Origin: Caldilineaceae bacterium
GTDB taxonomy: Bacteria; Chloroflexota; Anaerolineae; Caldilineales; Caldilineaceae
DNA: 64,000 bases
Direction of reading: 5' to 3'
Assembly: GCA_019637695.1 (NCBI GenBank)
Contig: JAHBVG010000001.1
Coordinates: 62,001 to 126,000, forward strand
Numbering within the stretch: the stretch's first letter is position 1; each line of letters begins with the position of its first letter. A model generated the notes under the pieces. The model made no database searches. It was given only the letters and a program-made list of their open reading frames with translations, and was not told the origin of the DNA. The position numbers and the translations under genes were made by a program. This document shows positions 44,596 to 63,060 of the stretch, piece by piece.

Positions 44596-46056
44596 ATGGG
44601 ACTTTTTAACCGTAATGCTGCACAGCCAATAAAACGAATGGGAGCGGTTCCCCCTGCTTATGAGACCGTCTCCCCGTTGCGCCCACCGACGTCACCGGCG
44701 CCGTCGGTCGCGCCGCCCCTCCGCCCGCCGGAGAATTCGCCCAACGGGGCGATGCGCGCCAACGGTCGCGAGAAAGAAGTTCCATCCTCGTTCGTGATCC
44801 TGCGCGATCGTGTGCAGCAAGAATTGATCCGCGACGCCACCCTGCACACCGAACGCATTAGCCTGGAGGATGGTCGCATCCTCATCGAGCCTATCTTTGC
44901 CAGAGCGATCACCGAAGCGGGTCTCGTCCTGAGCCGCGCTGAACGCCAGAGCATCTTCGAGCTGATCCTGGCCGACATCCTCGGCTATGGTCCGATCCAA
45001 CCCTTGCTCGACGACGACAGCATCTCCGAGCTGATGGTCAACGGCCCTTATCAGATCTACATTGAACGGGGCGGCAAACTGGTACTCAGCGACGTCAAAT
45101 TTCAAGATAACGCCCATGTGCTGCGCATTATCGAGCGCATCCTCGCCCCGTTGGGCCGCCGTGTGGACGAAAGCAGCCCGATGGTCGATGCCCGCCTCCC
45201 CGATGGCAGCCGCGTCAACGCCATCATCCCGCCGCTGGCTATTGACGGACCCAGCATCACCATCCGCAAATTCAGCAAAAAGCCGCTCTCTGTGCAGGAT
45301 CTGATCCGCTTTGGCAGCTTTACCGAGGAATTCGCCAAATTCGTCGAAGCTGCGGTGGTCTCGCACCTCAACATTATTGTGAGCGGCGGCACCGGTTCGG
45401 GGAAGACCACCCTGCTCAACGTGCTGAGTAGTTTTATCCCCAGCACGGATCGCATTGTCACCATTGAAGATAGCGCCGAGCTTCAACTGCGCCAGGATCA
45501 CGTTGTTCGCCTGGAGACGCGCCCGCCCAATATTGAGGGCAAAGGCGCCATCCGCATCCACGATCTGGTGATCAACAGCTTGCGTATGCGCCCCGACCGG
45601 TTGGTGATCGGCGAGTGCCGCGGCGGCGAAGCCTTCGACATGCTCCAGGCTATGAACACCGGCCACGATGGATCCATGTCCACGGCGCACAGCAATTCCC
45701 CGCGCGACACGCTGAGCCGCCTGGAAACGATGGTCCTCATGGCTGGGATGGAGTTGCCGCTGCGGGCTATTCGCCAGCAGATCGCCGCCGCCGTGGATCT
45801 CATCGTCCACGTGGAACGGATGCGCGATGGCAGCCGCCGCATCACCCACTGTACCGAGGTCCTCGGCATGGAAGGGGAGACGATCCTCTCGCAGGATATT
45901 TTCAAGTTTGAGGAAGAAGGGGTGGACGACAAGGGCAAGATCGTCGGCCAATTGCGCCCCACCGGCATACGCCCCAAAGTCTTGGATCGTATGAAAGCGG
46001 ATCAGGTCAACTTGCCGCCGGATCTCTTTACCAGCGGGTTGCGACGGCACCGGTGA
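44596..46056 (+). CDS. tadA: TadA/CpaF pilus-assembly ATPase
   Basis: 486 residues from the ATG at 44596; the frame also reads upstream into the TPR gene. A proline-rich N-terminal tail precedes the core. LLDDDSISELMVNGPYQIYI, the typical start of the CpaF domain; VDARLPDGSRVNAIIPPLAI; Walker A SGGTGSGKTTLLNVLSSFIP (about 264); the acidic VTIEDSAELQL; RPDRLVIGECRGGEAFDMLQ (Walker B region) and AMNTGHDGSMSTAHSNSPRD, the histidine motif of secretion ATPases. It drives pilus assembly on TadB/TadC. It starts 11 bases after the TPR gene. Confidence 0.97.
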   Translation: MGLFNRNAAQPIKRMGAVPPAYETVSPLRPPTSPAPSVAPPLRPPENSPNGAMRANGREKEVPSSFVILRDRVQQELIRDATLHTERISLEDGRILIEPIFARAITEAGLVLSRAERQSIFELILADILGYGPIQPLLDDDSISELMVNGPYQIYIERGGKLVLSDVKFQDNAHVLRIIERILAPLGRRVDESSPMVDARLPDGSRVNAIIPPLAIDGPSITIRKFSKKPLSVQDLIRFGSFTEEFAKFVEAAVVSHLNIIVSGGTGSGKTTLLNVLSSFIPSTDRIVTIEDSAELQLRQDHVVRLETRPPNIEGKGAIRIHDLVINSLRMRPDRLVIGECRGGEAFDMLQAMNTGHDGSMSTAHSNSPRDTLSRLETMVLMAGMELPLRAIRQQIAAAVDLIVHVERMRDGSRRITHCTEVLGMEGETILSQDIFKFEEEGVDDKGKIVGQLRPTGIRPKVLDRMKADQVNLPPDLFTSGLRRHR

Positions 46057-46295
46057 GAGGAGTGGGTATTGGATATTGGATATTGGGTATTGGGTAGCGT
46101 CAAGCATAAATTGAGGGGTAGGGGCGCTGCTTGCTGCGCCTGGTGTGCAGAGGGCGCAGCAAGCAGCGCCCCTACCCTGTTTCAATCAATTCATGACTGA
46201 CAACAGTAGTGCGTGAACGATTGTCACCTGCAACTTACAAACCTGCAACCACCAATATCCAATACCCAATACCCAATATCTAATCTGGAGTCCAC
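46057..46295. repeat. Outer inverted repeat enclosing a family C copy
   Basis: TATTGGATATTGGATATTGG at 46066 onward and CCAATACCCAATACCCAATA near 46258-46278 form loose inverted arms. A complete family C element lies inside them, followed by family F words (46205-46250). The block looks like one repeat inserted into another. Confidence 0.6.
46099..46202. repeat. Family C palindromic repeat, copy 2
   Basis: From GTCAAGCATAAATTGAGGGG to CAATTCATGACTGAC. Its core is a perfect 25-bp stem, GGGTAGGGGCGCTGCTTGCT plus GCGCC and complement. In copy 1 (20600-20705) the middle of the right arm is turned around, so the stem is interrupted there. Confidence 0.8.
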
Positions 46296-46718
46296 ATGAC
46301 CAAGAAAAACTTGCTAGTCCACAACATTCAGCGCCGGATCGATCTGGTGACGATGGGGAGCGTGGCGGACACGTTTTGGAGCCGGGGCAAGGGGCTGATC
46401 GGACGAAAAGAGTTGGACGTTGGCGATGGACTGCTCATCTCTCCGTGCAGCAGCATCCACTGCTGCTTTATGTCGATCCCCATTGACGTGATCTATTTGG
46501 ATCGCGACAACCGAGTCGTCGGCCTGGACAAAGAATTGCGCCCCTGGCGGATCGGTGGGATCTACCGGGGCGCAAAACGGGTGCTGGAATTGCCCGCAGG
46601 GACGATTGAAAAGAGCGGCACGGCGGTCGGGGATTGGCTAGAGATTGCTATCTTCCCTCGATATCAACCTCTCACCCGTTCGCGCGCTTCTTCGGAAGCA
46701 TCTTCTTCCACCCCGTAG
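46296..46718 (+). CDS. DUF192 family protein
   Basis: 140 residues. The DUF192 core is present: ADTFWSRGKGLIGRKELDVG, LLISPCSSIHCCFMSIPIDV, IYLDRDNRVVGLDKELRPWR and AKRVLELPAGTIEKSG. It lacks the signal peptide of many members, so it is probably cytoplasmic. The last 18 residues (QPLTRSRASSEASSSTP) are encoded by DNA that is also the 3' end of the tubulin-like gene on the other strand. Members are often next to pilus or secretion genes; no function is established. Confidence 0.88.
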   Translation: MTKKNLLVHNIQRRIDLVTMGSVADTFWSRGKGLIGRKELDVGDGLLISPCSSIHCCFMSIPIDVIYLDRDNRVVGLDKELRPWRIGGIYRGAKRVLELPAGTIEKSGTAVGDWLEIAIFPRYQPLTRSRASSEASSSTP

Positions 46719-49642
46719 AGCAGCCGGCGCTGGCGATCCACCAGGGCGAGTTGATCCAAGTTGGCGTCATTCAACATCATCATCTCCATGTAATAACGGC
46801 GGATGCTGCCCAGATCCTCCAGGGTAAGGCCGTGGACGGTGCGCACAAAGTTGAGGCGGAAGGGATCGTCCGTGGGCAACAGCGTCGAGCGGAACTCGCG
46901 CAGTGTGGTTTCGGAGAGGTCGCTCTCTGCGCTACCCCAGACCGCGGCAAAATCCACGGGGATGCCATGGGCGGCGAGCCGGTCGGCCACATCGTAGTTA
47001 GCGGCGGGCTTGGCGTGGCTCCACAGCGCTTCCAAATAACGGTGGATCAAGTTCTGTTTGCTGGTCCCCTGTGCGCCGTTTGTATGATGGGGGGCAGATC
47101 CATCGCGCCAGAGCAGATGTTCCAGATTGCAGATCTGCGCCAGTTCGCGCACCAATTCATCGCGTACGGCCTGAGCCGAGGCTGCGCTGAGATCCGAGAT
47201 CGTCGCCTGCACGCTTTCGCGCAGCAGATCCTGCATGGCTGCCGAGAGCGGACGCCGATCCTCTTCTTCGAGCAGCAATCCTTCGAGCTTGCGCCGCCAC
47301 GCCACCGAACGCCAGGATGAGCGCAACCGTTCCTCGCTGCGCCGTCCTTCCCGATCTTGTTGGGCGCGCAGATGGCTGCGGCAGAGTTCCCATAGCCGGT
47401 CGCTCACGCGCGGACCGTAGAGATGGGTGGCGGCATAGGCCACAGGCGTGGGGATACCATCATCCACCGTCCACTGGTTGAGCGACTCGTTCGTATCTTC
47501 GAGCGCGCGCGCCATCTCGCGCAACATCTGCGCCAGATGATCATAGGCGCGCAACAATCCCTGCTGTACCCGTTCCTGAAGTTGAGAGGTCAACTCAGCT
47601 TGGGCCAACGCCAACCGCTCGCGCCGCAGCCGCTGGATCCGCGTCAGTCGCCGCCGATAGCTCATGGCGCCGCCTACGTACGCGCCCAGGAAGATCCCCA
47701 ACAGCGTGCCGCCATCCACGATCAGATCAAAAGGACGGTTGAAGGCGATCAAATAGCCAATCGCCACGATCAGCACGGCCAGCACCAACAGCGAGGATCG
47801 CAGCAATGTCCGCCCCAGCGAGGGCTCCTTGAGCACATTACCCTCATAGTGAGCGCGCCACTGACGCAGGGCAAGTTGACGTTGCGCCGTAGCCAGGTTG
47901 CGCTGCCCCGGCGTAAGGATCGTCACCCGCTGGCGCGCCTCTTCCAACTCGGCCTGCCAGATCGCCAATCGACTCTGCGCCTGGCGCAAGCCTGTCGGCG
48001 ATTCAGCCAGCAGCTCGACGAAGGTGCGGCGCATGTAGAGCGCCGCGGCGGGCAGCACCCGTTTGTCATTTTTATTTTTGGGCAACCCGTTCGGGTGTAA
48101 AGCGCCCAATCCCCAGGCATAATCCAGAGCGGAAGCGCCAACCAGCCGGTCGAACTGTTGGGTCACCGTCTGCAAACGATCCTCAAAGGCGGCAAGCCAC
48201 CCGGCGGGGGAGAGAGGGCGCAACTCGGCGGCAATAGACGGCGGCAGCACAAAATTAGGATGGATCGCCAACTCGTCCAGCCCATGCGGCGTCACATTGA
48301 GGAAGAGATCGGGCATCTGCGCGATCAACTGGGCGATGACCTGATCCTGGGTGATGCCCAGATCGATCAAGGACGCCGCCTCAGCTTCTTGCGCGGGATT
48401 GCCCACGGGATCTTCTGCATTCAAGATCACTTCTCGGATCAGCCGTTTTTCCTCTTGTTGGTGAACGGCGCTGAAGATGTAATCCAGCGGCACATAGTCG
48501 CCCGCTGCGCCCATCAAACTGTAGGGGCGCTCGTGGGCGTTGCGCAGATCAATGCCCAACTGCTCTTCCACATGCTGATTGCCATCGGTGGTGATCATCG
48601 CCTCTAGGGCGTTGCCCACAAGGACGCTCAACTCGTAACTGTTGCGTACAAGCCCCTGGTTGCTCTTTTCCCGATCCACCAGGTAGATGCGATCCAACAG
48701 CGAGCGGCCCACCCAGCTTTCGAGCAGACCGCACTGACCGGGCAACGCCGGGAATCCTTCGCCGCGCACCAACGGTTCCACCGCAGATTGGGCCGCAGGG
48801 TGCAGATCGGTGAGCGCTTCCAACTCGGCGATGGACGCAAACGAGACGGCGTCCTCAATGGCGCGATTGCTGTCCCCAGCGTAGCTGCCCGTGGCGAAGA
48901 TGCCGACGATCTGCGAAATGTGGCGCTCGCCCAGATAGTTGAGCAGATGGACGAGTGTAGGCCAGATCAAAGCCGAAGCCAGCGGCTCAAAGAGCGGCGC
49001 TACCACGTAGAGCGTCGTCTGCACAAAGGGATCGCCCGGCGCCAGGTTGTCATGGCGAATGGGCGCGATCAAATGCGCATCCAAGAGGCGCGCCATCTCG
49101 ATCCCTTGGCTCAGCCCGGTCCGAAAGACATCGGCGCGGCGGGCTGGGATCGTATCCTCTTCGCCGCGCCCATTTTTATACTCAACAAAGGTGGGGATCT
49201 GTTGGTTCAACGGCTGCAAAACTGGCGCGGCAGCCTCCAAAAGTTGGCGGGCGCGACGCTCACTATCCACAGTCGCAAGAGGAGTTCCCGCTACGCCGAA
49301 CATACGATGCCCGCTTCCAATCATCCAGCCGTCGCCGCGCAGATCCTGTTGGTGGCGCGCGTCCAGCCGTTCCAACAGTCGCTCCAAATAGAAGGGAGGC
49401 AAGGGCGTCTGCGCGCGCAGCTTGCGTAAATGCAGCGGAACATGCCCATCTGGGGCGAGCGTCCCTTCCGCAAGGAGCGCGGCGAACTGCGTCACCTGCG
49501 TCAGATCCGGCCCCTGCACCTTGCGCGCCCGGCGTTGATCCTGAATCGATTGTATGCGCGGCTGCAAGTGGAGCATTGTCTGCAAGCCCCACCCGCCAAA
49601 ACAGAGTATCGCCGCCCGGCTTCGTGTCGCACCCGTAATCAT
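46664..49642 (-). CDS. Degenerate tubulin-like protein with two membrane helices
   Basis: 992 residues from the ATG at 49642. I align it by eye with the tubulin-like protein at 50238-52790: the first strand ILCFGGWGLQTMLHL matches VVGVGGMGTNTVRAV; TTLYVVAPLFEPLASALIWP matches QLVYVVGSLCGGTGSGMFMD; QIVGIFATGSYAGD matches RVVGIFYLPDVLEE; DRIYLVDREKSNQG matches DFIFLVGRTNREGR. The glycine-rich nucleotide loop GGTGSG is replaced by FEPLAS (about residues 219-224), so it should not bind GTP normally. Residues about 608-660 contain two membrane helices (SSLLVLAVLIVAIGYLIAF, GTLLGIFLGAYVGGAM), absent in the partner. The C-terminal part is alpha-helical. It likely anchors or caps filaments of the active partner (inference). 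Confidence 0.75.
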   Translation of the reverse strand: MITGATRSRAAILCFGGWGLQTMLHLQPRIQSIQDQRRARKVQGPDLTQVTQFAALLAEGTLAPDGHVPLHLRKLRAQTPLPPFYLERLLERLDARHQQDLRGDGWMIGSGHRMFGVAGTPLATVDSERRARQLLEAAAPVLQPLNQQIPTFVEYKNGRGEEDTIPARRADVFRTGLSQGIEMARLLDAHLIAPIRHDNLAPGDPFVQTTLYVVAPLFEPLASALIWPTLVHLLNYLGERHISQIVGIFATGSYAGDSNRAIEDAVSFASIAELEALTDLHPAAQSAVEPLVRGEGFPALPGQCGLLESWVGRSLLDRIYLVDREKSNQGLVRNSYELSVLVGNALEAMITTDGNQHVEEQLGIDLRNAHERPYSLMGAAGDYVPLDYIFSAVHQQEEKRLIREVILNAEDPVGNPAQEAEAASLIDLGITQDQVIAQLIAQMPDLFLNVTPHGLDELAIHPNFVLPPSIAAELRPLSPAGWLAAFEDRLQTVTQQFDRLVGASALDYAWGLGALHPNGLPKNKNDKRVLPAAALYMRRTFVELLAESPTGLRQAQSRLAIWQAELEEARQRVTILTPGQRNLATAQRQLALRQWRAHYEGNVLKEPSLGRTLLRSSLLVLAVLIVAIGYLIAFNRPFDLIVDGGTLLGIFLGAYVGGAMSYRRRLTRIQRLRRERLALAQAELTSQLQERVQQGLLRAYDHLAQMLREMARALEDTNESLNQWTVDDGIPTPVAYAATHLYGPRVSDRLWELCRSHLRAQQDREGRRSEERLRSSWRSVAWRRKLEGLLLEEEDRRPLSAAMQDLLRESVQATISDLSAASAQAVRDELVRELAQICNLEHLLWRDGSAPHHTNGAQGTSKQNLIHRYLEALWSHAKPAANYDVADRLAAHGIPVDFAAVWGSAESDLSETTLREFRSTLLPTDDPFRLNFVRTVHGLTLEDLGSIRRYYMEMMMLNDANLDQLALVDRQRRLLYGVEEDASEEARERVRG

Positions 49643-49648
49643 CAACGT

Positions 49649-49873
49649 TTATTCAACTTCAAATAGTATTCGTGGTAGCCCAGATTGCCGGATGATCGAA
49701 CGCAATGTCCCGGCTCGCACCTCTTTGTGATTTGGTACAGGGACGGTGATGGTCGATCCTTCAAGTTGACGTTGCATAATGATATGGCTGCCGCGTCGTC
49801 GTACTTCGGCAAATCCATGAGCCTCCAAAATTTTGCAGATCTCATCCGCAGAGAGTATCTGGAGCTTAGGCAA
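49649..49873 (-). CDS. hicA: HicA toxin (mRNA interferase)
   Basis: 74 residues from a TTG at 49873, with GGGAG six bases before. It begins MPKLQILSADEICKILEAHG, the common HicA start, and has the catalytic histidine in RRRGSHIIMQ, then TITVPVPNHKEVRAGTLRSI as the double-stranded RNA-binding-like fold, and IIRQSGLP. It overlaps hicB by eight bases and ends six bases before the start of the degenerate tubulin gene. Confidence 0.95.
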   Translation of the reverse strand: MPKLQILSADEICKILEAHGFAEVRRRGSHIIMQRQLEGSTITVPVPNHKEVRAGTLRSIIRQSGLPRILFEVE

Positions 49874-50093
49874 CTGGAACTCCCACTTGCGTGATAAAGA
49901 CTTCGGAAGCCAGCCGTTCACGGATCTCCGAAGGCGATGCCGTCTCGAAGAAGAGTTCAAGCGCTTCGATCAGGTTATGGCGCGCTTCCTCAACGGTTTC
50001 ACCCTGGCTGGCAATATCCAATTCGGGGCAAAGGGCAACGTACCAATCGTCTTCTTTTTCGATAATCGCCGTAAATTGCTGGATCTTTTTCAT
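49866..50093 (-). CDS. hicB: HicB antitoxin
   Basis: 75 residues from the ATG at 50093 with GAGGAT as SD; the open frame extends upstream into repeat DNA. The HicB fold is FTAIIEKEDDWYVALCPELD, ASQGETVEEARHNLIEALEL and FF. No DNA-binding domain follows, so autoregulation may need HicA. It precedes hicA. Confidence 0.94.
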   Translation of the reverse strand: MKKIQQFTAIIEKEDDWYVALCPELDIASQGETVEEARHNLIEALELFFETASPSEIRERLASEVFITQVGVPVA

Positions 50094-50137
50094 GCTATCC
50101 TCAAAGGTTACGATAAGGCCATTCCAAGATTTAAATT

Positions 50138-50211
50138 GATCCACGAAGACACACCAATGGACACGAAGATCAGAGAAAAACTTTGTGTCTCTTCGTGTGC
50201 CTTCGTGGATC
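50138..50211. repeat. Imperfect palindrome before hicB
   Basis: GATCCACGAAG (50138-50148) and CTTCGTGGATC (50201-50211) are perfect inverted ends; ACACGAAGA and TCTTCGTGT extend the pairing inward. The word type ACCACGAAGACAC also occurs near 3398. It lies in the leader of hicBA and could be an operator or a small repeat element. Confidence 0.6.
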
Positions 50212-50237
50212 ATGATTTTTGTGAAATGGCCTAAATG

Positions 50238-52790
50238 TTACCGTCGTCCAGATGAACTCCAGTTTTGGTAATTCGTGCCGGTGATGCGCGTATTGCTGAC
50301 ATGGGACGGCGGCATCTCCGGCGTGATCTCCGGCAGGTTGACCCAATGCGGGTTCAAGTGGAATTCCTCGGTAACGGGGAAATCCTGCATGTTTTCGTAT
50401 TGGGCGCGGAACTCGTCGAGCCGCTCCAACAAGGTGACCGGCAGCCCGTGGACGATCCAGACGGCGTCCATGCGGCTGACATCGCCGGTGGGGACCCACT
50501 TGATGTCCTCTTGCCCGACCATCGCAATCGCCATATCCTGATCGTCGGCGCGGCTGCCCGGCGTCGCCGCCAGACGAATGTGTTCCAGATCGGCGTCGTG
50601 GAAGCTGAAGCGATCCGAATCCCAGCGGATGTAGGGGTTGAGCCGATCCAGCCATTGGTGAATGCGGTTGTTGGGCAGCGGACGCGACGCGCTCACCTCT
50701 TCGCCGTGCTGCACACCAATAATGTGGCGGATGTCCACCAGTTTGCGCACACGGCCAATCAGCCCCGTATCCTCATAGACACTGGTGTTGAGGATCTCCA
50801 ACATCTGCTCGGCGCTGAGCGGATTGCTCTGCGTCAGCAGCCCATCAAGCAGCCGGCCCAGCAGCATCTGCCAATCCTCGGCGTGGACGGCCCCGGCGGC
50901 GCGTTTGTAGAAATGTTGCAGATAATCGCGGCCAATCGCGCCCGTCTCCAATTCATAATAAGTGCTGGTGGTCAGCGTGCCATCGGGGATGCGCGGGTCG
51001 ATGCGATCCGCCATGGCGCTGGCTTCATTATTGGCGCGCACCAGCGCCTGCGCGGCGTTGGTCAACTGGTTGCGGAAGACCTCGCGCATCCGTGTGGCGA
51101 AATGGCCCAGCTCGTCCACCATCATACGCTCGGTGGCGTCGCGGCGCTGATAAAGACGGGCGCGGGCCTTGCGCGTGGCAAGATCGCGCGCCCGTTCGCG
51201 CGCCTGACGTGGGCTGAAGGCGGAGAGCAGCAGATCGCCAAAGCCGCCCGCTAACTGATTCACCCGTTCCCCGGCGCCGCCTTCCTGCGCCAGCAAGGAT
51301 CGCCAGCGCGCCCGATCCTCTTCGCCCACAGGCTGGTTGTCGAGCAGGAAGAGACGCTGGCGGTGCAACGATTCCATAGGCGCGGCGGCAGGGTTGTTGG
51401 GTCCGATCAACTCGGAAAGGGCAATCGCCCCGCGCAGACCGGTCTCGACAATGGCCTGGCGGAAGGCGCGTTCGGCCAGTTCGCGGAAGGAGAGCCACGC
51501 CCCGCGCCCCTCCTCGATCTCGGCGATGATCTCCTCCAGGCGGTCGTTGTTGAGGGCGAGATAGCGCGAACGCATTTCGGCCAACAAGGTCTGCCAGATC
51601 GTCATTACACGCTGGCGTTCGCTGGTGGAGATAGGCTGGCGCGGATCTTGCAAACTCGGCCCGGCGGCAAAGCGGCGGATCACATCCGTGAGGAAGGCGC
51701 GCTGCCAGAATTGGGTGAGCAATTCATCGGGGGCCACAATCGCCGATGCCGCGAAGCTGCTGTAAACGAGAAAATGGCCCGATTTTGTGCGCCGTTCGCC
51801 CACCACTTCACCGGCGGGCAGGTTAGGATTGGCCATACGCTCGCGTACAACGTTCACCTCCAACCCCAGGATCTCGCTGCTGAGGTGGCTGATGGCGGTG
51901 AGTTGGATCAGGTGCGCGGCCAGGTTTTCCGCGTCGGATTTGCGCGCCAGGCTGCGTCCTTCGCGGTTGGTGCGCCCGACCAAAAAGATGAAATCGAAGG
52001 GCGCGTAAGGCGTATCGGGCAGGGCGCGCTGCTCGCTGGGGTATAGCTCCTGGAAGGTCTGCGTCTCTTGGAAGTAGTTGAGTTCCTTGAGCGCGGCGTA
52101 GGCGTTGGCCTTAATGCGTCGGCGCTGTAGATCGCTGGTGATCTCCTCTTCGAGTACGTCGGGCAGGTAGAAGATCCCCACGACGCGGGCGTTGCTGCGC
52201 ACCAATGCGCGCACACGATGCGCCACATCCATAAACATCCCCGACCCGGTGCCGCCGCAGAGGCTGCCCACCACATAGACCAGTTGATAGTTCCCCATGA
52301 CAGGGAAGCCGCGGTTCTGCGCCATCTCCATATCGCGGATCTTATCCAGCGAGGCGTATTTGGTCTCCAACAGCCGCTTAAAGGTGACATAGTTACGGAA
52401 GAACGAGAGCCGTCCAATCGGGCGAAGCTGTTTGGCCCCGTTGTGGATATAGCCCAACGGGATCGACGGATAGTTCCACCAGCGCGCGATCTCCGGGTGG
52501 TTGTCCAAATTGTCCACGAGGCGGGTGGCGTCGAACTTGCCCATGTAGGCGAACTCGTCGGCATAGAGCGGCTCCTGATCGAGCCGGTTGACCAGCGGTT
52601 CCGTGTCCAGCGCCAGCAGTTGGACCATACCGGGCAGTGTGTCGCCGCCCCAGACTTTACGCAGACGGCGTTTGACGGCGCGCACGGTGTTCGTGCCCAT
52701 CCCGCCCACCCCCACCACCAGGGTAGGGTAGATGGTCGCCTTTTCGCCGATCAGTGGTGTCCCGTTCAAATATGTACCGTTTTCGTTCAT
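50238..52790 (-). CDS. Tubulin-like (FtsZ-superfamily, Tubulin_2 type) protein
   Basis: 850 residues from an ATG with GGAAAG upstream. The first strand and loop are TLVVGVGGMGTNTVRAVKRR; an acidic stretch LLALDTEPLVNRLDQEP follows; the tubulin signature loop is YVVGSLCGGTGSGMFMDVAH (GGTGSG at 179-184), corresponding to GGGTGTG of FtsZ and tubulin. Further parts are ARVVGIFYLPDVLEEEI and FDFIFLVGRTNREGRSLARK. After about residue 400 a long helical C-terminal part has no parallel in FtsZ. It is of the type described by Makarova and Koonin (2010) as FtsZ-like proteins linked with VWA proteins in membrane-remodelling loci. VWA, hicBA and a degenerate paralogue flank it. Confidence 0.9.
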   Translation of the reverse strand: MNENGTYLNGTPLIGEKATIYPTLVVGVGGMGTNTVRAVKRRLRKVWGGDTLPGMVQLLALDTEPLVNRLDQEPLYADEFAYMGKFDATRLVDNLDNHPEIARWWNYPSIPLGYIHNGAKQLRPIGRLSFFRNYVTFKRLLETKYASLDKIRDMEMAQNRGFPVMGNYQLVYVVGSLCGGTGSGMFMDVAHRVRALVRSNARVVGIFYLPDVLEEEITSDLQRRRIKANAYAALKELNYFQETQTFQELYPSEQRALPDTPYAPFDFIFLVGRTNREGRSLARKSDAENLAAHLIQLTAISHLSSEILGLEVNVVRERMANPNLPAGEVVGERRTKSGHFLVYSSFAASAIVAPDELLTQFWQRAFLTDVIRRFAAGPSLQDPRQPISTSERQRVMTIWQTLLAEMRSRYLALNNDRLEEIIAEIEEGRGAWLSFRELAERAFRQAIVETGLRGAIALSELIGPNNPAAAPMESLHRQRLFLLDNQPVGEEDRARWRSLLAQEGGAGERVNQLAGGFGDLLLSAFSPRQARERARDLATRKARARLYQRRDATERMMVDELGHFATRMREVFRNQLTNAAQALVRANNEASAMADRIDPRIPDGTLTTSTYYELETGAIGRDYLQHFYKRAAGAVHAEDWQMLLGRLLDGLLTQSNPLSAEQMLEILNTSVYEDTGLIGRVRKLVDIRHIIGVQHGEEVSASRPLPNNRIHQWLDRLNPYIRWDSDRFSFHDADLEHIRLAATPGSRADDQDMAIAMVGQEDIKWVPTGDVSRMDAVWIVHGLPVTLLERLDEFRAQYENMQDFPVTEEFHLNPHWVNLPEITPEMPPSHVSNTRITGTNYQNWSSSGRR

Positions 52791-52992
52791 AAAACTTTCC
52801 CAATCAACCCTGTGGGTAATATTCGTAAGCTGCTTATTTCACCCTAAAGCGGGAGAATCGCCAAATTCAAGCGGGCGCAGAAAAGAAGGCAAAAGGCAAA
52901 GGGTAAAAGGCAAAAATGGTGGCAAGTTGCAGGTGACAATCGTCTACGCACTACGCACCAATCTCTAATTACCAATATCTAATACCTTCCCC
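52791..52992. repeat. Family F words between the VWA and tubulin-like genes
   Basis: AAAAGGCAAAGGGTAAAAGG and GCAAGTTGCAGGTGACAATC, then CTACGCACTACGCACCAATC and TACCAATATCTAATACC. Words related to those at 46066-46280. No gene; the tubulin-like gene's promoter presumably lies here. Confidence 0.5.
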
Positions 52993-55900
52993 TCACCACC
53001 GCGATGACCACGCGTCATCCTGCGCGGGGCTGTTGCGGTTGGTGGATGGGGTGGCGTTGGCGGTTGTGTTGGCCGGCGAGCCGCCCCAATCGATCTCGCC
53101 CCACTGGCTGCCCCACGAAGATCCGCCGTCGGCCTGGCGCGCAGATGCTGTGTCAAACGAGGGCGTGACAAAGGCGGATTCTGCCTCGGCGCTGAAGGTA
53201 GGCGTGGGCAGCGTCACCACCGGTTCCTCTTCGTCGTCGCTGTAGCCGCTGTTGCGCACCCGCGCCAAAATGATCAGCAGAACCAGCAGCGTCAGCGGAC
53301 CCGAACAGAGCAGCAGCGGTAAACTGTAAATCGGCAGCAGCCACCACGCCACATAGCGCTGGAAAGGCGTCGGGCTGCGGAAGCCGATGTCCACCGTGCG
53401 GGTTTCATTGGGCAGTCCCTCGATCCCCAAAACGAGATCGCCAATATAAAAGGTCCCCCGCAACGGGTCGAGGGGGATCGAACGATTGGCGACCAGTGTA
53501 ATCGGTACTTCGTAAAAACCGTTGGCGTTGGGTTCGCCTGTCACCTCAACGGGCAACATCTCGACAAAGTTCTGGTTGAGATCCGCTGCGCCCGCGTCGG
53601 CTTCCCCCGATGCGCTGAGATCGAGCATTTTGAGTGTAAAGGGCGTGGCGCCGTCAAAGCGGATGAGCAACGTCTGCGTGGATCGTTCCCCGGCCCGGTT
53701 GAGATCGCCAAAATTGAGCGCGCCGGCCACTGTCCACGCCAGGTTACGGATGCGCAGCCGGTAATCGATCTGGGATGGGAAGATGTCGAAATCCTCGTTT
53801 GGCCCGCTCAACCGGATCTGCCCATTGCACGCACCCGGTTCCACCGAGCCACTGCTGCGCAATCGGACGGGCAGCGCGTAGCCGTCCCCTTGCGGCTGGA
53901 GTTCCCCCGAAGTCACCGTCAACCCTGCGCAGGAACTCTCGGCCAGCGCTGCGCTGACGCGGAAGGACCTGCCCCGTTCAAAGGTAAGCGGCAGCAGCGT
54001 TTCCTGATCCACACGGAAATTGGGGGAAGTTTCAAAGATGGTTTCGCCGAAATCGACGATCTGGCTGCTCATACGCGCGGCGGATCGCTCTACGATCAAC
54101 GTCACCGGCAGCACCGGCGCCGGGCGGATCTTCACATCCATGGGGCGACCGGCAGGGTTCATAACAGTCAGCACAATTTCGCCCGTATACTGGCCTGGGC
54201 GCAATCGATCCAGCCCGTCCACGCGGAAGGTAGCAGGCCGCGCCTCGTTTTCATCCACCTCTTCAGAAAAGCGCAGCGTCGCCTCTGTGGCCGCTTCGCC
54301 CGTGTCGGCGCGGGTCAGGGTCAGCGTACCGTTGATCGTACCAATGGCCTGGGTCGTCCCCGCCAGGATCGAAACCGCCCAGCCATCGGCGGGCATCTGG
54401 CCTAGATCGAGGCTATCGGGCAGTCCGCGCAAATAGACCGCCGGTTCCACATTCAGGGCGGTCTCGATCCAATCACCAAAATGGAGATCGCCAGCCACGG
54501 CGCTGAGCAGAAAGCGGATGCTGTAATTGCGTCCGTCGGCAGGTGAGAAACCTTCATTGGCGCAGATGCGATCCACACAGCTCATGATGGCTGAGTAGAC
54601 AGGTTGCCCGGCGTCGTCCACTGTGATGTCCGAAACGTAGACGGTCGCCTGGAGTCCGCCAATGGACACGCCAGGGCCAAAGCCAACTTCCAGTCGGATG
54701 CGTCCATCCTCCAACAACCCTGGATTGGCGGTCGAAGGGGAGAAGACTTCGGCGCGCGGCAGATCGGCGCGGGATGCTAATGTGAAGCTTCTGCGCAACT
54801 GGAAGGGCGTCCTATCCTCGCCGAGTTGGAGTACGACATTGGTTGTGCCGGATGGCAGGGGCATGGCTGCCAGGGCGCTGTTGCCGCCAAACGTTGGGAT
54901 CGCCGTCTGCCCATCGAGCAAAATCGGCTCTCCGGCAGCAGGACCGGCGCCGCGTGCCACGATCATGGGGGCGCTGCCCGCCGGATAATACCGGACCGAG
55001 GCTGGGCTGTTGGGTACACTGGGCGGCGGAAAGATCAATTCAGGGTAGCTGTCGGCCTGCACCACGGCAAACGCGCTGGGATCGGCAGTCTCGACGATCC
55101 AGGCGCCGGCAGGTACGTCCCCACTGACGGCGTTGAGATCAATATTATCGTCTTCGAGCAGGCTTTGGGTGACCACAGGGCTATCATCGCGGCGCACACT
55201 GCTGATAGATGCCCGCGGGCTGACAAAGGCAAGCTGTCCTACATCCTGTACGGTGCGGGTGTTGAACGAGAGATATCCACTGGTGTTGCGCGCTGTTACC
55301 ACCGAACGATCTGGCTTCATCGAAGCGAAGATCTCGCTGAAGACGCGCAGCAGATCGGGGGCCGTTTGCGCCTCGCGCACATCCGCGCCGAACTGTCCGC
55401 TCAAAAAGTCACCTGAGCAGCCATCGGTTGGATTACAAAGCACAACGGGGAAGACGAGGACGCCATCGGCGCGCAGTTGTGCGAGATACTGGGCGAAGCG
55501 TCCTTCTTGACCGGCGGCGTTGGCGGGAGAAGTGGGTTCGCCATCGGTGAGCAGCAACACGTATTGGCTGCGATTGGGTTGCCGATTGTTTGCGAGGATG
55601 CGCATGGCGGCTTCTAAACCGAGATCGAGCCGGGTATAGCCGCGTCTCAAATAATCAGTGGGCGGCTGTAGCGACGAGGCGAGGATGCGACGGCGCTCGG
55701 CGCTGCCCGCTTCTTGCAACTCGCCCAGCACGCCCACCCCCTCGACGCCACTATCAAAGCGGATCACGGCGAGGCGGTCCGCGCTATCGGCCAGATGGAC
55801 CAACAGACGCGCCGCCGAGTAGCGCAGATCTTCAGGATCGCTTGGTTCATTGACACTCGGCGCGCGGCAGGGCGGCCCGAAGGGTGTCCCTTGTTGGGGC

Positions 55901-56073
55901 CAGGGCCAGCAGGTGACCATGCTCCCGGAGTCGTCGAGCACCACCACTACGTCGATAGATTTCGTCGCTGGGCCGGTCGGTGGTTCGATCTGCAAAGAGG
56001 GCGCCGCTGTCGAGGCGTAGGCCATCATCACCACCAGCACAATCGCCAGAAGTCCGGCAGCTGCGTTTTTCAA
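52993..56073 (-). CDS. VWA-domain membrane protein
   Basis: About 1026 residues. I prefer the TTG at 56073 (KNAAAGLLAIVLVVMMAYAS follows as signal peptide) because GAGAGG lies seven bases before it; an ATG six bases upstream sits too close to that SD. The VWA domain begins DVVVVLDDSGSM (MIDAS motif DxSxS) and spans about residues 40-260, with VLLLTDGEPTSPANAA. A long beta-sandwich extracytoplasmic region follows. Close to the end is one membrane helix (YSLPLLLCSGPLTLLVLLII, about 945-965) and a roughly 65-residue acidic cytoplasmic tail (YSDDEEEPVVTLPTPTFSAE). It lies directly upstream of the tubulin-like gene, so its tail may contact the cytoplasmic filament (inference). Confidence 0.88.
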   Translation of the reverse strand: MKNAAAGLLAIVLVVMMAYASTAAPSLQIEPPTGPATKSIDVVVVLDDSGSMVTCWPWPQQGTPFGPPCRAPSVNEPSDPEDLRYSAARLLVHLADSADRLAVIRFDSGVEGVGVLGELQEAGSAERRRILASSLQPPTDYLRRGYTRLDLGLEAAMRILANNRQPNRSQYVLLLTDGEPTSPANAAGQEGRFAQYLAQLRADGVLVFPVVLCNPTDGCSGDFLSGQFGADVREAQTAPDLLRVFSEIFASMKPDRSVVTARNTSGYLSFNTRTVQDVGQLAFVSPRASISSVRRDDSPVVTQSLLEDDNIDLNAVSGDVPAGAWIVETADPSAFAVVQADSYPELIFPPPSVPNSPASVRYYPAGSAPMIVARGAGPAAGEPILLDGQTAIPTFGGNSALAAMPLPSGTTNVVLQLGEDRTPFQLRRSFTLASRADLPRAEVFSPSTANPGLLEDGRIRLEVGFGPGVSIGGLQATVYVSDITVDDAGQPVYSAIMSCVDRICANEGFSPADGRNYSIRFLLSAVAGDLHFGDWIETALNVEPAVYLRGLPDSLDLGQMPADGWAVSILAGTTQAIGTINGTLTLTRADTGEAATEATLRFSEEVDENEARPATFRVDGLDRLRPGQYTGEIVLTVMNPAGRPMDVKIRPAPVLPVTLIVERSAARMSSQIVDFGETIFETSPNFRVDQETLLPLTFERGRSFRVSAALAESSCAGLTVTSGELQPQGDGYALPVRLRSSGSVEPGACNGQIRLSGPNEDFDIFPSQIDYRLRIRNLAWTVAGALNFGDLNRAGERSTQTLLIRFDGATPFTLKMLDLSASGEADAGAADLNQNFVEMLPVEVTGEPNANGFYEVPITLVANRSIPLDPLRGTFYIGDLVLGIEGLPNETRTVDIGFRSPTPFQRYVAWWLLPIYSLPLLLCSGPLTLLVLLIILARVRNSGYSDDEEEPVVTLPTPTFSAEAESAFVTPSFDTASARQADGGSSWGSQWGEIDWGGSPANTTANATPSTNRNSPAQDDAWSSRW

Positions 56074-56275
56074 AACCATTCCTCTCAACGATCCAATCTA
56101 CACAGTCTATACTCGACAAAACGTCATTAGGGCGCGAACGTAGTGCATTGTAACACAACGGAAAAGTGTTTCAAACTATCCATGTGATTATGTCAAGATG
56201 ACGGAGGTAGACCGCAGAGACCGCCACTGGTAGAGGATAACGCATGAGAAAAGGAGGGGGTTCCGAAGAAAGAGG

Positions 56276-56350
56276 GTGATAGGTGATAGGTGACTGGGGA
56301 CTGGGCATCCATGGCGGACTTCCAATCCCCAGTCACCTATCACCTATCAC
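56276..56350. repeat. Family E: perfect 25-bp inverted repeat
   Basis: GTGATAGGTGATAGGTGACT plus GGGGA (56276-56300), and its exact complement at 56326-56350, with a 25-base spacer. It is the cleanest copy of family E in the window. It lies in the space 56074-56356 between the thioredoxin-like lipoprotein gene and the VWA gene; no other gene is seen there. Confidence 0.9.
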
Positions 56351-56356
56351 CACTCC

Positions 56357-57763
56357 CTACTCTCTCGCTTCAGCGAGCAATTCGGTGAGGGCGGCGCTGA
56401 ATTGATCGGCAGGCAGCGCGCCAGGGATGAGACGTCCCTGATCCCCGTAGAGGACGACGAAGGTTGGCGTGCCGCGAACAAAGGGTGAACCATCGGTTAA
56501 ATCGCTTAAGATCGCCTGGTATGTTTCTTGGGCTTCCATACAGGTTTCAAACTGGGCCATATCCAGGCCAAGATCCTCGGCCAGCGAGGTCAGGCCGGCG
56601 TCAACGGTAGCGCTGCTGCCCCATTCCTCTGTGCGCTCAAAGAGAAGATGGTGCATCTCCCAGAACTGCCCCTGATATCCTGCACATTGGGCAGCGCCGG
56701 CGGCAGCCACAGCCTGGGGATGGCTCTGTTCCACAGGGAAGTGTTTGAAAACCCACATCACATCGCCAGGATCGATAAACTGTTCATCCAACACCGGCTG
56801 CGTATTGAGAGCATGTTGACGGCAGAATGGACATTGGAAATCGCTAAACTCGACCACCACCAGCGGCGCATCAGGGTTGCCCCGCCAGAAGTCACCGGCC
56901 ACGGTGAAGCCAGGGTTGTCGGGATCAGGCGATAACCCCTCTTCTTGCGCCCAATAAGGGATCTGCGGTTCGCCCTGTTGTTGCTGTTGGGCCGCAGCAG
57001 GATCTACCGGCGCGCCGCCGGCAAGCATTGTGTCAATATAGTCAGAAAAGATGTTGTAGGGCTGCGCGCCGACCAACCTAAACGCTTCTCCGCTCTCCTC
57101 GTTGACAAAGACGAAGCTGGGTGTGCCGCTAAAGCCCAGCGACTGCGCCTCGGCGACGCTCTCACGCACAGCGGCTTCCTTCACGTCGGCTGTTTCGGCC
57201 AGGCAGGCTGCATAGAGATCAGGATCTGCGCCAGCTTCCTCAGCCAGCCGAGCAAAGACAGAGTCGGGATTGGCAGAGCGCGACCACTCTTGTTGGGCGC
57301 GGAAGAGCAGCCGGTGCATCTGCCAATAGTGGACGATCCCCTGCTCGGCGACACAATTGGCCGCCACCGCTGCTGGGATCGCATTGGGGTGCAGCGTCTC
57401 TAGTGGAAAGTCGCGGAAGACGAACCTTACGTCGCCTTCGGCTACATAATTATCTTTTAGGGCAGGTTCGGTTTGGATCACATGGCGGGCACAGAAAGGA
57501 CATTCGTAATCGCTGAATTCGTAGACGGTAATGGGCGCATCAGGGTTGCCGCGATAGGGGAACCCTTCCGCAGTAAAGCCGACGGGCATACCCTCATAGA
57601 TGGCGGCGGGCGCGGGTTCGGCGGCAGCAACGGGTGTGCTATCTTCCTCGACGACAGGCGCCACAGGCACAGGCAAGGTCGGCATCGTACAAGCTGAAAT
57701 CACGAGCAGCGCCATCAGCACGACGACAAGCCCAATCGTCCTTCCCAATCGATGAATGTGCAT
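56357..57763 (-). CDS. Lipoprotein with two DsbA/thioredoxin-4-type domains
   Basis: 468 residues. The N-terminus is a lipoprotein signal with lipobox VISAC (lipidated cysteine 25). Two DsbA-like domains follow: the first near residues 60-245 with YEFSDYECPFCARHVIQTEP, the second near 285-460 with VEFSDFQCPFCRQHALNTQP. Both have the CPFC redox motif, and both have helical insertions and a cis-proline region (GFSGTPSFVFV and RGTPTFVVLYG). It should form or reshuffle disulfides in exported proteins. Two complete domains in one chain is unusual; most members have one. A glutamine-rich linker separates them. Confidence 0.92.
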   Translation of the reverse strand: MHIHRLGRTIGLVVVLMALLVISACTMPTLPVPVAPVVEEDSTPVAAAEPAPAAIYEGMPVGFTAEGFPYRGNPDAPITVYEFSDYECPFCARHVIQTEPALKDNYVAEGDVRFVFRDFPLETLHPNAIPAAVAANCVAEQGIVHYWQMHRLLFRAQQEWSRSANPDSVFARLAEEAGADPDLYAACLAETADVKEAAVRESVAEAQSLGFSGTPSFVFVNEESGEAFRLVGAQPYNIFSDYIDTMLAGGAPVDPAAAQQQQQGEPQIPYWAQEEGLSPDPDNPGFTVAGDFWRGNPDAPLVVVEFSDFQCPFCRQHALNTQPVLDEQFIDPGDVMWVFKHFPVEQSHPQAVAAAGAAQCAGYQGQFWEMHHLLFERTEEWGSSATVDAGLTSLAEDLGLDMAQFETCMEAQETYQAILSDLTDGSPFVRGTPTFVVLYGDQGRLIPGALPADQFSAALTELLAEARE

Positions 57764-57878
57764 GGGGATCTATCCCTTCTGTGTAGTTATGCGAATAAGT
57801 CTCTACTTGGAAATCTGGCATGGTGAACAGTGTACACGATAGGAGATCCAACTACCAAAGAAAAATGAATGCTTTCGT

Positions 57879-59039
57879 TTATCGCTCACGTCGCAGCCAT
57901 AGCGATGTAAGGATGAGTATCACCGCAGCCATGAATGTTGTCCACCCCATTCTGAGCAACAAGGGGCTACGCTCGAAGACAATCCCCGCTGGCGGCTGTT
58001 GGACGCTCTCGACGGCAAGTACGCTCAATGACTCACGCTGAACGGTCCCGACGCTGGCGGGTTGAGCGATCCCTTCCAGGGCGGCGGCAATCGCCACAAC
58101 TTCCCCTGTCGCTGACAAGATTGCATCTTCCAATCGCGGCGGGGAAAGGACTTCCAGGGGCGGTCGGGTGGCGGTGGGCGTCAGCAGCGATCCCGAAGGC
58201 AGCGGAGGGATCGGCGTCTCGATGGCTGGCTCCCATAGATCACCTTCAAGCAGGATGGCCTGCGCCTCAGCGGTCAAAGTCAACGCAATGTCTGGCGTTT
58301 GGACCAACCCGGGCGCATCGACAAACGGTGTCGGCGTTGCCAGCGGAGATTGTAGATCCTCAAGGCGGGGGGTGGGCGTCACTACGACCGCCGGGATCTC
58401 TGTCGGCGTCTCTGTCGGCGTTTCCGTTGGGGTAGGTGTCAATGTTTCGGTTGGCGTCTCCACGGGTGTGGGAACAGGTGAATCCACTGTCAACGTAGCC
58501 GTCGGTGTAGGCAGTTCTACATCCCCAATGGCGAGGAAGCAGGTCGGCTCTACTGCGATCTCGATTTCGGCGCCATCAGTTCGTCTCAAACTCGCAGCCG
58601 AGAGCGTAAATGAAATGAGGGCAGGTGTGTCTAGTGTCTGGATGCGTACGCCTGCCAGCACGCCATCCACAGCAGAAAAGACGGCGCTGTCGATCCGGTT
58701 GGCGCGGAATTGAATCTGCCCCGGAAAACTCGTTGTCTGCGCAAAATCGAGGGTCAATAGAGCGGTTGATTGCCAGGAATCAACCGTGGGCGTTGTGATC
58801 AAATTCGGATTGGTATAGTCAATGGTTAAGGCCAATTGTTCAAGATCAAGGGCTGTCTGAACATTGCGCAACCGAAGCGTGAACAGCGCCTCTCCTGAAG
58901 TGGCAATCGTTTCAGGTATCAACGCACAACTCAAGATCGGGCGCGTCACCTCCTGCGCCTGCACGAATGATCCGAGCAGCAGCGCCGCCAGCAGCGTCAA
59001 GAGGAGGCGATAGAATGAAGAAACAGGGGTTATTGCCAT
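57879..59039 (-). CDS. Secreted cohesin-like protein with C-terminal anchor
   Basis: 386 residues from the ATG at 59039, seven bases after AAGGA. Signal peptide (LLLTLLAALLLGSFVQA), then a cohesin-like beta domain (residues about 30-185: LTIDYTNPNLITTPTVDSWQ, FPGQIQFRANRIDSAVFSAV). The next part is a PT-rich stalk with tandem TPTETPTE repeats, and the end is one membrane helix (GWTTFMAAVILILTSLWL) with RRER. This layout is that of a cell-surface anchored protein. No dockerin is seen nearby. It is upstream of the thioredoxin-like lipoprotein and VWA genes on the same strand. Confidence 0.82.
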   Translation of the reverse strand: MAITPVSSFYRLLLTLLAALLLGSFVQAQEVTRPILSCALIPETIATSGEALFTLRLRNVQTALDLEQLALTIDYTNPNLITTPTVDSWQSTALLTLDFAQTTSFPGQIQFRANRIDSAVFSAVDGVLAGVRIQTLDTPALISFTLSAASLRRTDGAEIEIAVEPTCFLAIGDVELPTPTATLTVDSPVPTPVETPTETLTPTPTETPTETPTEIPAVVVTPTPRLEDLQSPLATPTPFVDAPGLVQTPDIALTLTAEAQAILLEGDLWEPAIETPIPPLPSGSLLTPTATRPPLEVLSPPRLEDAILSATGEVVAIAAALEGIAQPASVGTVQRESLSVLAVESVQQPPAGIVFERSPLLLRMGWTTFMAAVILILTSLWLRRER

Positions 59040-59614
59040 ATGTGAATCCTTGTCCATAGTATAGTTCAAGGGTGTTAGGTTATGTATAATTGATTGTCAT
59101 TTGCTTAACCTGAAAACCTGCTACTCTGCTAGAATAGCATGGCTTGACTCATCGCTCAACCGCCATACGTGTTAAGGTGACTCCATAGACAAGTTTCCGG
59201 CTCTGTGTTGATTATTCCTACGTTCGCCCTATCACACCCTACGAAATCGTTAAGGATTCTCATTAAGGATGCTTTATTTTATTGAAAATATAGGCATTTT
59301 AGCGTAGTGAATTCATTGTTCTTGCGTTGATTCAAGAGTAGAGTTAAATATATCGACATTCAAGTGTAGAGAAATTGCTATTTTGTAATAGAGATTGTAA
59401 GCAAGTCAATTTGCCAAACTTACTTATCTCCATATAAGATAGCGCGTAAATCTGATAAATTAAATTAGAATTAGCAATGTTGCTGCCTTGTTCAGTGTAA
59501 CTCTTTTACCCCCTCTGCGAACCACTCCCCAGGGTATAGAAGAGAAATAAACTGGCTGATTGTTGTACTATGCTTCAGCAGTGTTTCAAATATGCCCCTC
59601 AAAGGAATTGATAA
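59040..59614. other. AT-rich divergent intergenic region
   Basis: 575 bp without a convincing gene, between the cohesin-like gene (minus) and the large PCP-like gene (plus). From about 59220 to 59480 it is clearly more AT-rich than anything else in the window, with stretches such as ATTGAAAATATAGGCATTTT. It must contain promoters in both directions. I could not pick the boxes with confidence. AAAGGA at 59599 is the SD of the right-hand gene. Confidence 0.6.
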
Positions 59615-62986: not shown

Positions 62987-63060
62987 AGAAGATGAATGGC
63001 AAATGTGTTTGAAAGTCGTATTCTCTGTCACCTGCGACTACCAGCGAAGGAGTGTTGATT

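Follow-up and report, generated by a model that had tools for sequence, protein, structure and literature searches.

Nucleotide-driven assembly is the textbook picture for the FtsZ-tubulin superfamily. All members characterised by 2010 were described as forming filaments, and the comparative survey of that year, in the sections covered here, published operons combining VWA and FtsZl1 genes and noted archaeal FtsZ paralogues without functionally important motifs (Makarova and Koonin 2010, PMC2875224). Tubulin-containing GTPase conflict systems were later proposed by Kaur et al. (2020, PMC7159879). The subject of the present analysis is a stretch of 64,000 nucleotides from a Caldilineaceae bacterium of the Chloroflexota (contig JAHBVG010000001.1; hereafter the window), in which genes for a VWA protein and for two tubulin-like proteins, TUB and TUBX, follow one another. 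TUB is an intact protein of the Tubulin_2 (FtsZl1) family, and TUBX is a homologue of that family without the T4 phosphate loop and with a predicted membrane hairpin. The reading we favour, at a probability of roughly 0.55, is that a pseudo-tubulin would tether, nucleate or cap, at the membrane, a tubulin that binds guanosine triphosphate (GTP), with a link to an outward-facing VWA protein.

The series, in order of transcription, is as follows.

56088-52993, minus strand: VWA protein, 1031 amino acids, first gene; N-terminal hydrophobic helix, VWA domain, C-terminal membrane helix and tail
52790-50238, minus strand: TUB, 850 amino acids from an ATG start, second gene
49642-46664, minus strand: TUBX, 992 amino acids from the ATG at 49642, third gene

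A first-pass annotation of the window had placed an intact tubulin with GGTGSG beside a 992-residue protein with FEPLAS at the same place, and both frames are indeed open on the minus strand. The TUBX frame is open over 46664-49645 and would encode 993 amino acids from a TTG start or 992 from the ATG, which is also the start in the relatives shown, with the exception of locus L026, where the frame extends further upstream.

TUB is a member of Tubulin_2 (PF13809)/FtsZl1 by the curated Pfam threshold (E 9.4e-60, 203 bits against a cut-off of 27), has the GGTG(S/T)G T4 loop and adjoins a VWA gene. No hydrophobic segment with a mean hydropathy of at least 1.8 was found in TUB (0 of 26 sequences). 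The host genome encodes an ordinary FtsZ elsewhere (435 bits), and TUB is therefore probably not the division FtsZ of the host.

Kinship of TUBX with Tubulin_2

The window TUBX matches no Pfam or NCBIfam family above cut-off and gives no Tubulin_2 match even at E 1. Alignment of the narrow TUB and TUBX families by hhalign was collinear yet weak (P 0.036), and diverse profiles were needed. Against a broad profile of intact proteins TUBX scored 72.7 (P 5.4e-8), while the best of 14 controls, comprising the reversed target, the reversed query, four unrelated families of the same loci and eight column shuffles, reached 27.6 (P 0.032). The initial view of the 992-residue protein as a tubulin-like paralogue is borne out by this profile work, which identifies it as a Tubulin_2 homologue without the T4 signature.

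A hidden Markov model (HMM) of TUBX was run on 490 open reading frames of loci from the phylum. Its first matches were degenerate genes that lie beside Tubulin_2 genes elsewhere in the phylum, hereafter partners (L090 6e-15, L066 2.6e-10), followed by two intact Tubulin_2 genes (0.0024 and 0.011). When L066 and L090 were added to the model, the 13 top matches, these two included, were all Tubulin_2 genes or partners, and the best new match was the intact gene of L070 (E 1.8e-8). When the HMM is aligned to the intact L066 protein, lyViaplyePltsali faces VYIVSSLCGGTGSGLL, so that the FEPLAS block stands opposite GGTGSG. Of the 37 genomes with TUBX, 14 have an orthologue that the Pfam Tubulin_2 model detects by itself (20-26 bits, E 9e-6 to 7e-4). 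These matches lie within model positions 197-355, past the T4 loop, and all 14 fall within the match to the TUBX alignment A1. Since these scores stay below the cut-off of 27, TUBX is a homologue of Tubulin_2 and not a member by the Pfam rule. Common descent of TUBX and Tubulin_2 is demonstrated by these sequence comparisons. The A1 profile found no relative in 349 other genomes drawn from the phylum, two of which (G137 and G238) nonetheless carry the partners L090 and L066 detected by the TUBX HMM.

The corresponding elements of the two proteins, all on the minus strand, are these.

52689..52712, minus strand: T1-like loop GVGGMGTN of TUB, residues 27-34; G27, G29, G30, G32 and N34 invariant in 19 sequences
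52239..52256, minus strand: T4 signature GGTGSG of TUB, residues 179-184; G179, G180, T181, G182 and G184 invariant in 19 sequences
51966..51986, minus strand: S6/T6 block FLVGRTN of TUB, residues 269-275, from alignments
49580..49600, minus strand: T1-like loop FGGWGLQ of TUBX, residues 15-21; G16-Q21 invariant in 21 sequences, aligned to the T1 loop of intact proteins
48974..48991, minus strand: FEPLAS in place of GGTGSG in TUBX, residues 218-223, from alignments
48656..48682, minus strand: S6/T6 block LVDREKSNQ of TUBX, residues 321-329, invariant in 21 sequences, aligned with FLVGRTN
47741..47797, minus strand: predicted membrane helix 1 of TUBX, residues 616-634, mean hydropathy 2.63 (strong)
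47675..47731, minus strand: possible membrane helix 2 of TUBX, residues 638-656, hydropathy 1.55 (weaker)
46811..46867, minus strand: C-terminal DPFRLNFVRTVHGLTLEDL block of TUBX, residues 926-944, resembling the HG block of intact proteins

The block that occupies the GGTGSG place in TUBX is itself conserved as A-x-L-x-E-P-x-x-x-A-L-x-W-P, with E219, P220, A224, L225, W227 and P228 invariant in the 21 sequences of alignment A1. Low ratios of nonsynonymous to synonymous substitution (dN/dS) in four pairs, 0.11-0.18 for TUBX and 0.03-0.10 for TUB, together with the long invariant blocks, demonstrate at the sequence level that the TUBX family is under purifying selection and is not decaying; in the widest pair (window and L003) synonymous change in TUBX is 1.4 and thus near saturation. 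Identity to the window protein is 45-68% in TUBX and 74-88% in TUB, with L026 set aside at 32 and 40%.

Two membrane helices had been claimed for TUBX. The first is strong and stands, and the second is weaker and has to be called possible, with second hydropathy peaks of 1.38-2.13 in the relatives. A hydrophobic segment of at least 1.8 is present in 26 of 26 TUBX sequences, and the predicted hairpin is placed after the tubulin domain. Further downstream, the C-terminal block matched that of all intact proteins with hhalign P 1e-3 over 22 columns (six null controls, 0.11-0.76). The C-terminal part gave P 0.007 against TUB alone and P 0.058 against the partners, and the partners as a set gave P 0.91 against the intact C-terminal parts. 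Kinship of the DPFRLNFVRTVHGLTLEDL block with the intact HG block is thus suggestive only.

Co-inheritance and gene surroundings

A TUBX search in contigs from one genome per species yielded 25 loci, mostly labelled Caldilineaceae or Litorilinea, with one, L026, from a distant uncultured Anaerolineae (30% identity). VWA, TUB and TUBX are consecutive on one strand in 24 of them, which establishes the gene order; the 25th (L008) has TUB and TUBX on a contig that starts inside the TUB frame. Among 46 genomes of the host's order, in counts that include some fragments at contig ends, Tubulin_2 was matched in 38 and TUBX in 37, all 37 falling within the 38. In the one remaining genome, G372, TUBX is missing and the Tubulin_2 match is weaker (E 2e-26), and the eight genomes without Tubulin_2 are also without TUBX. 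Conservation of the pair, which had been suggested as a check, is accordingly strict in this order (37 of 38 Tubulin_2 genomes), and the arrangement proved wider than first thought. These distributions demonstrate that TUB and TUBX are inherited together, and since the genes travel together in related genomes their products probably work as a pair.

The VWA protein matches VWA_2 slightly below the cut-off (E 1.1e-5, 26.4 bits against 27) and has hydrophobic segments at residues 4-22 and 923-941. Upstream of its gene, on the same strand, lie genes for a DsbA-like lipoprotein and for a protein without a family. Past TUBX, on the opposite strand, are a type II/IV secretion ATPase and a TPR/propeller protein. 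The plus strand at 59615-62986 encodes a protein of 1123 amino acids with weak Wzz and GNVR matches, both below cut-off, possibly a polysaccharide chain-length regulator.

At 49649-50093 on the minus strand, between TUB and TUBX, lie a HicA toxin gene (PF07927, E 1.2e-19) and, before it, a HicB-like antitoxin frame with weak matches below cut-off. The interval between TUB and TUBX opens with an imperfect palindrome of about 117 bases (50116-50232), 70% of which matches its own reverse complement. DNA resembling the HicB-like part occupies the same gap in L018 and L023, and in L003 the two genes are separated by a mere few bases. An Rfam scan of window positions 46000-60000 and a PHROGs scan of the TUB/TUBX pair gave no match. 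A scan of viral contigs found one locus, whose own PHROGs scan was without matches.

Degenerate partners across the phylum

Of 350 genomes sampled from the phylum, counting that of the window, 41 have Tubulin_2, and 36 stretches from 31 of the 41 were examined; G007, G020, G048, G130, G154, G181, G298, G306 and G344 were left out of the reading, as was a short match in G293 (contig 159). Outside the host's order, partners were picked by gene position and by eye and were tested afterwards. In 20 of the 36 stretches, from 18 genomes, a degenerate partner lies 3' of the intact gene on the same strand, and some of these loci are so closely related that they do not represent 20 independent events.

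Paired loci: L057, L058, L059, L062, L064, L065, L066, L068, L069, L072 and L075 to L084

In L090 the contig starts within the degenerate partner, and contigs end too early to judge the partner in L073, L074, L088 and L092. The third gene of L091 has no detectable homology (P 0.51) and a strong hydrophobic segment at 604. L089 was dropped as a pair, its upstream frame being a VWA protein. In L085, L086 and L087 the VWA gene comes after the Tubulin_2 gene, whose own product bears a hydrophobic segment.

A profile of 13 partners (L058, L059, L064, L065 and L076 to L084) matched the intact proteins with P 6.8e-12, its 14 controls lying at 0.12 or weaker. Of the partners compared singly with intact proteins, L057 (1.5e-16), L072 (4.3e-9) and L066 (4.8e-8) gave clear values; L062 (8e-5 over 32 columns), L075 (8e-4 over 37 columns), L069 (0.005 over 39 columns) and L068 (P 9.5e-4; HMM E 8.7e-7) were weak. 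The match of TUBX to the 13-partner profile (P 1.8e-5) covers the part that comes after the tubulin domain.

GGTG is present in 31 of 33 intact rows (absent in L061 and L069; the wrong L089 row is left out) as against none of 22 partner rows, which include the window, L090 and the later-dropped L089. A hydrophobic segment beyond residue 350 occurs in 15 of the 19 paired partners whose later part is present (that of L080 is cut short) and in none of the 20 paired intact proteins. In a 58-row tree, 2 changes suffice to account for the labels partner and intact, as one old duplication would give, although branches are long; shuffled labels needed 19.1 on average, with 0 of 500 shuffles as low.

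At 7298-17836 of L060 a single frame of 3513 amino acids has two Tubulin_2 domains, with GGTGSA in the first, GGMSGT at the T4 place of the second and hydrophobic segments between them.

An obligate heterodimer or copolymer, in which TUBX would alternate with TUB and its empty site would make every second interface permanent, is modelled on alpha/beta tubulin or BtubA/B. Strict co-inheritance and constant gene order of TUB and TUBX agree with it, as does the two-domain frame of L060, which looks as if the pair had been fused. However, TUBX evolves faster than TUB, which is odd for a subunit with two conserved interfaces, and a hairpin in every second subunit would be expected to tie the whole filament down. 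We regard this arrangement as unlikely.

Outside the Chloroflexota, a Thermales plasmid gene that follows Tubulin_2 looked degenerate by eye but found no support in the profile comparison (P 0.15-0.2), so no pair is claimed there. On three such plasmids (L093 7249-15326, L097 7167-15126 and L098 4660-13752), VWA, Tubulin_2 and an unknown gene of about 680 amino acids are followed by brxL, with methyltransferase, helicase, HmaC-like or WYL genes nearby in one or another. This set is a possible tubulin-containing defence module. A Thermus thermophilus plasmid (L099 8209-12685) keeps the same unknown gene and brxL, with Tubulin_2 reduced to a C-terminal remnant of 262 amino acids and no VWA gene annotated in the stretch.

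The three plasmids with brxL and other defence-type genes bear on a model without filaments, in which TUB would be a GTP switch, with TUBX as its receptor or scaffold at the membrane, and both would serve in VWA-dependent signalling or conflict of the kind that Kaur et al. proposed for tubulin-containing GTPase systems. The model draws further on the FtsZl1 family perhaps lacking filament elements, as far as the 2010 survey is covered here (PMC2875224), and on the placing of firmicute and actinobacterial tubulin genes in predicted conflict systems in the sections of PMC7159879 covered. On the other hand, Pfam recognised no clear defence gene among the nine window proteins scanned, a PD-(D/E)XK nuclease at 63052 aside, and TUB, TUBX and the VWA protein matched no PADLOC family at E 0.1. 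On balance it appears somewhat unlikely.

Proposed roles and comparison with known systems

According to the membrane-tether reading, TUB and TUBX would be two products of a single old duplication of a Tubulin_2 (FtsZl1) gene, with divided work. TUB would have retained its GTP-binding loops and remained soluble; TUBX would have lost the T4 phosphate loop, retained the rest of the domain and come to carry the membrane hairpin and a long helical region. Most probably TUB would assemble, given GTP, into filaments or short oligomers on the cytoplasmic side of the membrane, where the pseudo-tubulin domain of TUBX would bind this polymer as a terminal subunit or lateral partner, thereby nucleating, capping or anchoring it at the membrane. 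The VWA protein, predicted from its sequence to have its domain probably outside, one membrane helix and a cytoplasmic tail, might join the polymer or its anchor to an extracytoplasmic ligand or to the envelope. The first-pass annotation had gone as far as an active filament-former with a membrane-anchored, non-nucleotide-binding paralogue. Of this, T4 loss and a predicted hairpin in a Tubulin_2 homologue are upheld by the present analysis, as is inheritance together with TUB, and filaments, nucleotide use and contact between the two proteins are what we infer.

Several observations weigh against this reading. AlphaFold, working from shallow alignments of 21 rows for TUBX and 19 for TUB, gave a TUBX model with block means of 25-65 in predicted local distance difference test (pLDDT) over the first 380 residues, mostly helical there, and no tubulin was among the best 50 of 187 Foldseek matches to this low-confidence model. 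The structural check proposed at the outset thus speaks weakly against a tubulin fold. Among the matches listed, helical pore-forming proteins predominate, which we read as chance arising from long helices. The TUBX profile search of the PDB returned one marginal match, the peptidyl-tRNA hydrolase domain 2jva (E 0.0071, profile positions 39-130), which is hard to square with a tubulin identity and is here taken for chance. TUB itself fared scarcely better, with pLDDT 25-57 over its first 300 residues. Its low-confidence model matched CetZ (3zid) at rank 4 (probability 1.00, E 0.025), and FtsZ and TubZ chains as well, behind three unrelated matches at ranks 1-3 and with none at E 0.001 or lower; of six PDB profile matches of TUB (E 0.14 to 1.3), one was a tubulin/FtsZ chain (3zid, E 0.6). 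The fold results, the marginal PDB match, the lack of a direct Pfam match for the window TUBX and the weak alignment of the two narrow families are what one would expect if TUBX were an unrelated helical membrane protein whose blocks align by chance. Several kinds of profile evidence for Tubulin_2 homology, including the comparison with 14 controls, stand against that explanation, which we hold to be highly improbable.

Other points of the same adverse kind concern the T1 loop, the distribution and the family itself. Because GGWGLQ is invariant, TUBX may still bind a ligand; one TUBX frame of the order (G383) holds an internal TGA. The partner is not universal, because 9 of the 36 loci (L061, L063, L067, L070, L071, L085, L086, L087 and L089) have an intact or single gene with no recognised partner; a large neighbour gene in L071 lay outside the profile tests. 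At the limits used, Pfam Tubulin_2 recognises 11 of the 20 paired partners; the three with E 0.001 or lower are L057 (1e-16, 61.6 bits, the sole one over cut-off), L058 (1.2e-4) and L059 (6.7e-4). The unpaired L090 gave E 9e-4, and the Pfam scans found no Tubulin_2 match in the partners of L062, L064, L065, L068, L069, L072, L075, L077 and L082. Partners L064 (1.71), L068, L069 and L072 fall below 1.8 and have no clear membrane segment. Long branches of the tree weaken the case for a single duplication, and the partner L057 falls among intact rows. Finally, T6-H7 was unidentifiable in the FtsZl1 family and polymerisation was left open, in the sections of the 2010 survey covered here (Makarova and Koonin 2010, PMC2875224).

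A broader proposal, offered tentatively and at odds somewhat short of even, is that many Chloroflexota with Tubulin_2 carry a two-tubulin machine, in which an ancient, fast-evolving T4-less pseudo-tubulin would serve as membrane anchor, nucleator or cap and report to a VWA protein outside. If true, this would amount to a prokaryotic equivalent of a tubulin dedicated to nucleation or capping, arisen by duplication and loss of nucleotide binding, and a conserved T4-less member with a membrane hairpin would show a cytoskeletal protein turned into its own anchor or cap. A reviewer of the 2010 survey objected that FtsZl1, being cytoplasmic, and VWA proteins, being extracytoplasmic, could not belong to one complex (PMC2875224, in the part covered); TUB and VWA would be connected by a membrane subunit from the family of TUB, which would answer the objection. 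The poorly understood VWA/FtsZl1 systems would gain a testable layout, with one subunit soluble and GTP-binding, a second of the same family in the membrane, and a VWA protein that faces outward.

Within the covered sections of that survey (PMC2875224), FtsZl1 agrees with TUB in family, in the VWA gene beside it and in an N-terminal domain followed by helical regions, and the text there describes no intact FtsZl1 with a degenerate partner anchored in the membrane. The anonymous associated families listed there (A1-A2 and B1-B9, Additional File 6) may include a partner of the TUBX type unrecognised. The GAP1-N2 GTPase systems of Firmicutes (Kaur et al. 2020, PMC7159879) likewise have two tubulin genes and VWA genes, two of the latter, per neighbourhood. 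Neither tubulin is described as degenerate or membrane-bound in the sections covered, where the theme is limited to firmicutes and actinobacteria (PMC7159879). A further difference is that the nine window proteins scanned include no recognised GTPase besides TUB.

Alpha/beta tubulin and bacterial BtubA/B are each two paralogues with unequal nucleotide use, as TUB and TUBX would be. To our knowledge, and unlike TUBX, both members of these pairs keep the T4 loop and neither spans the membrane. Plant ARC3 is an FtsZ-like protein with a degenerate GTPase domain, whose gene is not known to lie beside that of FtsZ. As described in the sections of PMC5855766 covered here, ARC3 is FtsZ-derived and acts on active FtsZ filaments, and differs in being a stromal inhibitor with a MORN domain, in plants. 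Among the matches listed from open-licence PubMed Central literature, a scope outside which subscription papers and the 2010 supplements fall, there was no T4-less membrane-anchored partner of an intact Tubulin_2. The original claim of an arrangement new within the FtsZ superfamily therefore needs qualifiers: VWA/Tubulin_2 operons, two-tubulin operons of Firmicutes and motif-poor archaeal FtsZ paralogues were already known, as was ARC3, and what appears new, against the literature listed, is the anchored degenerate partner.

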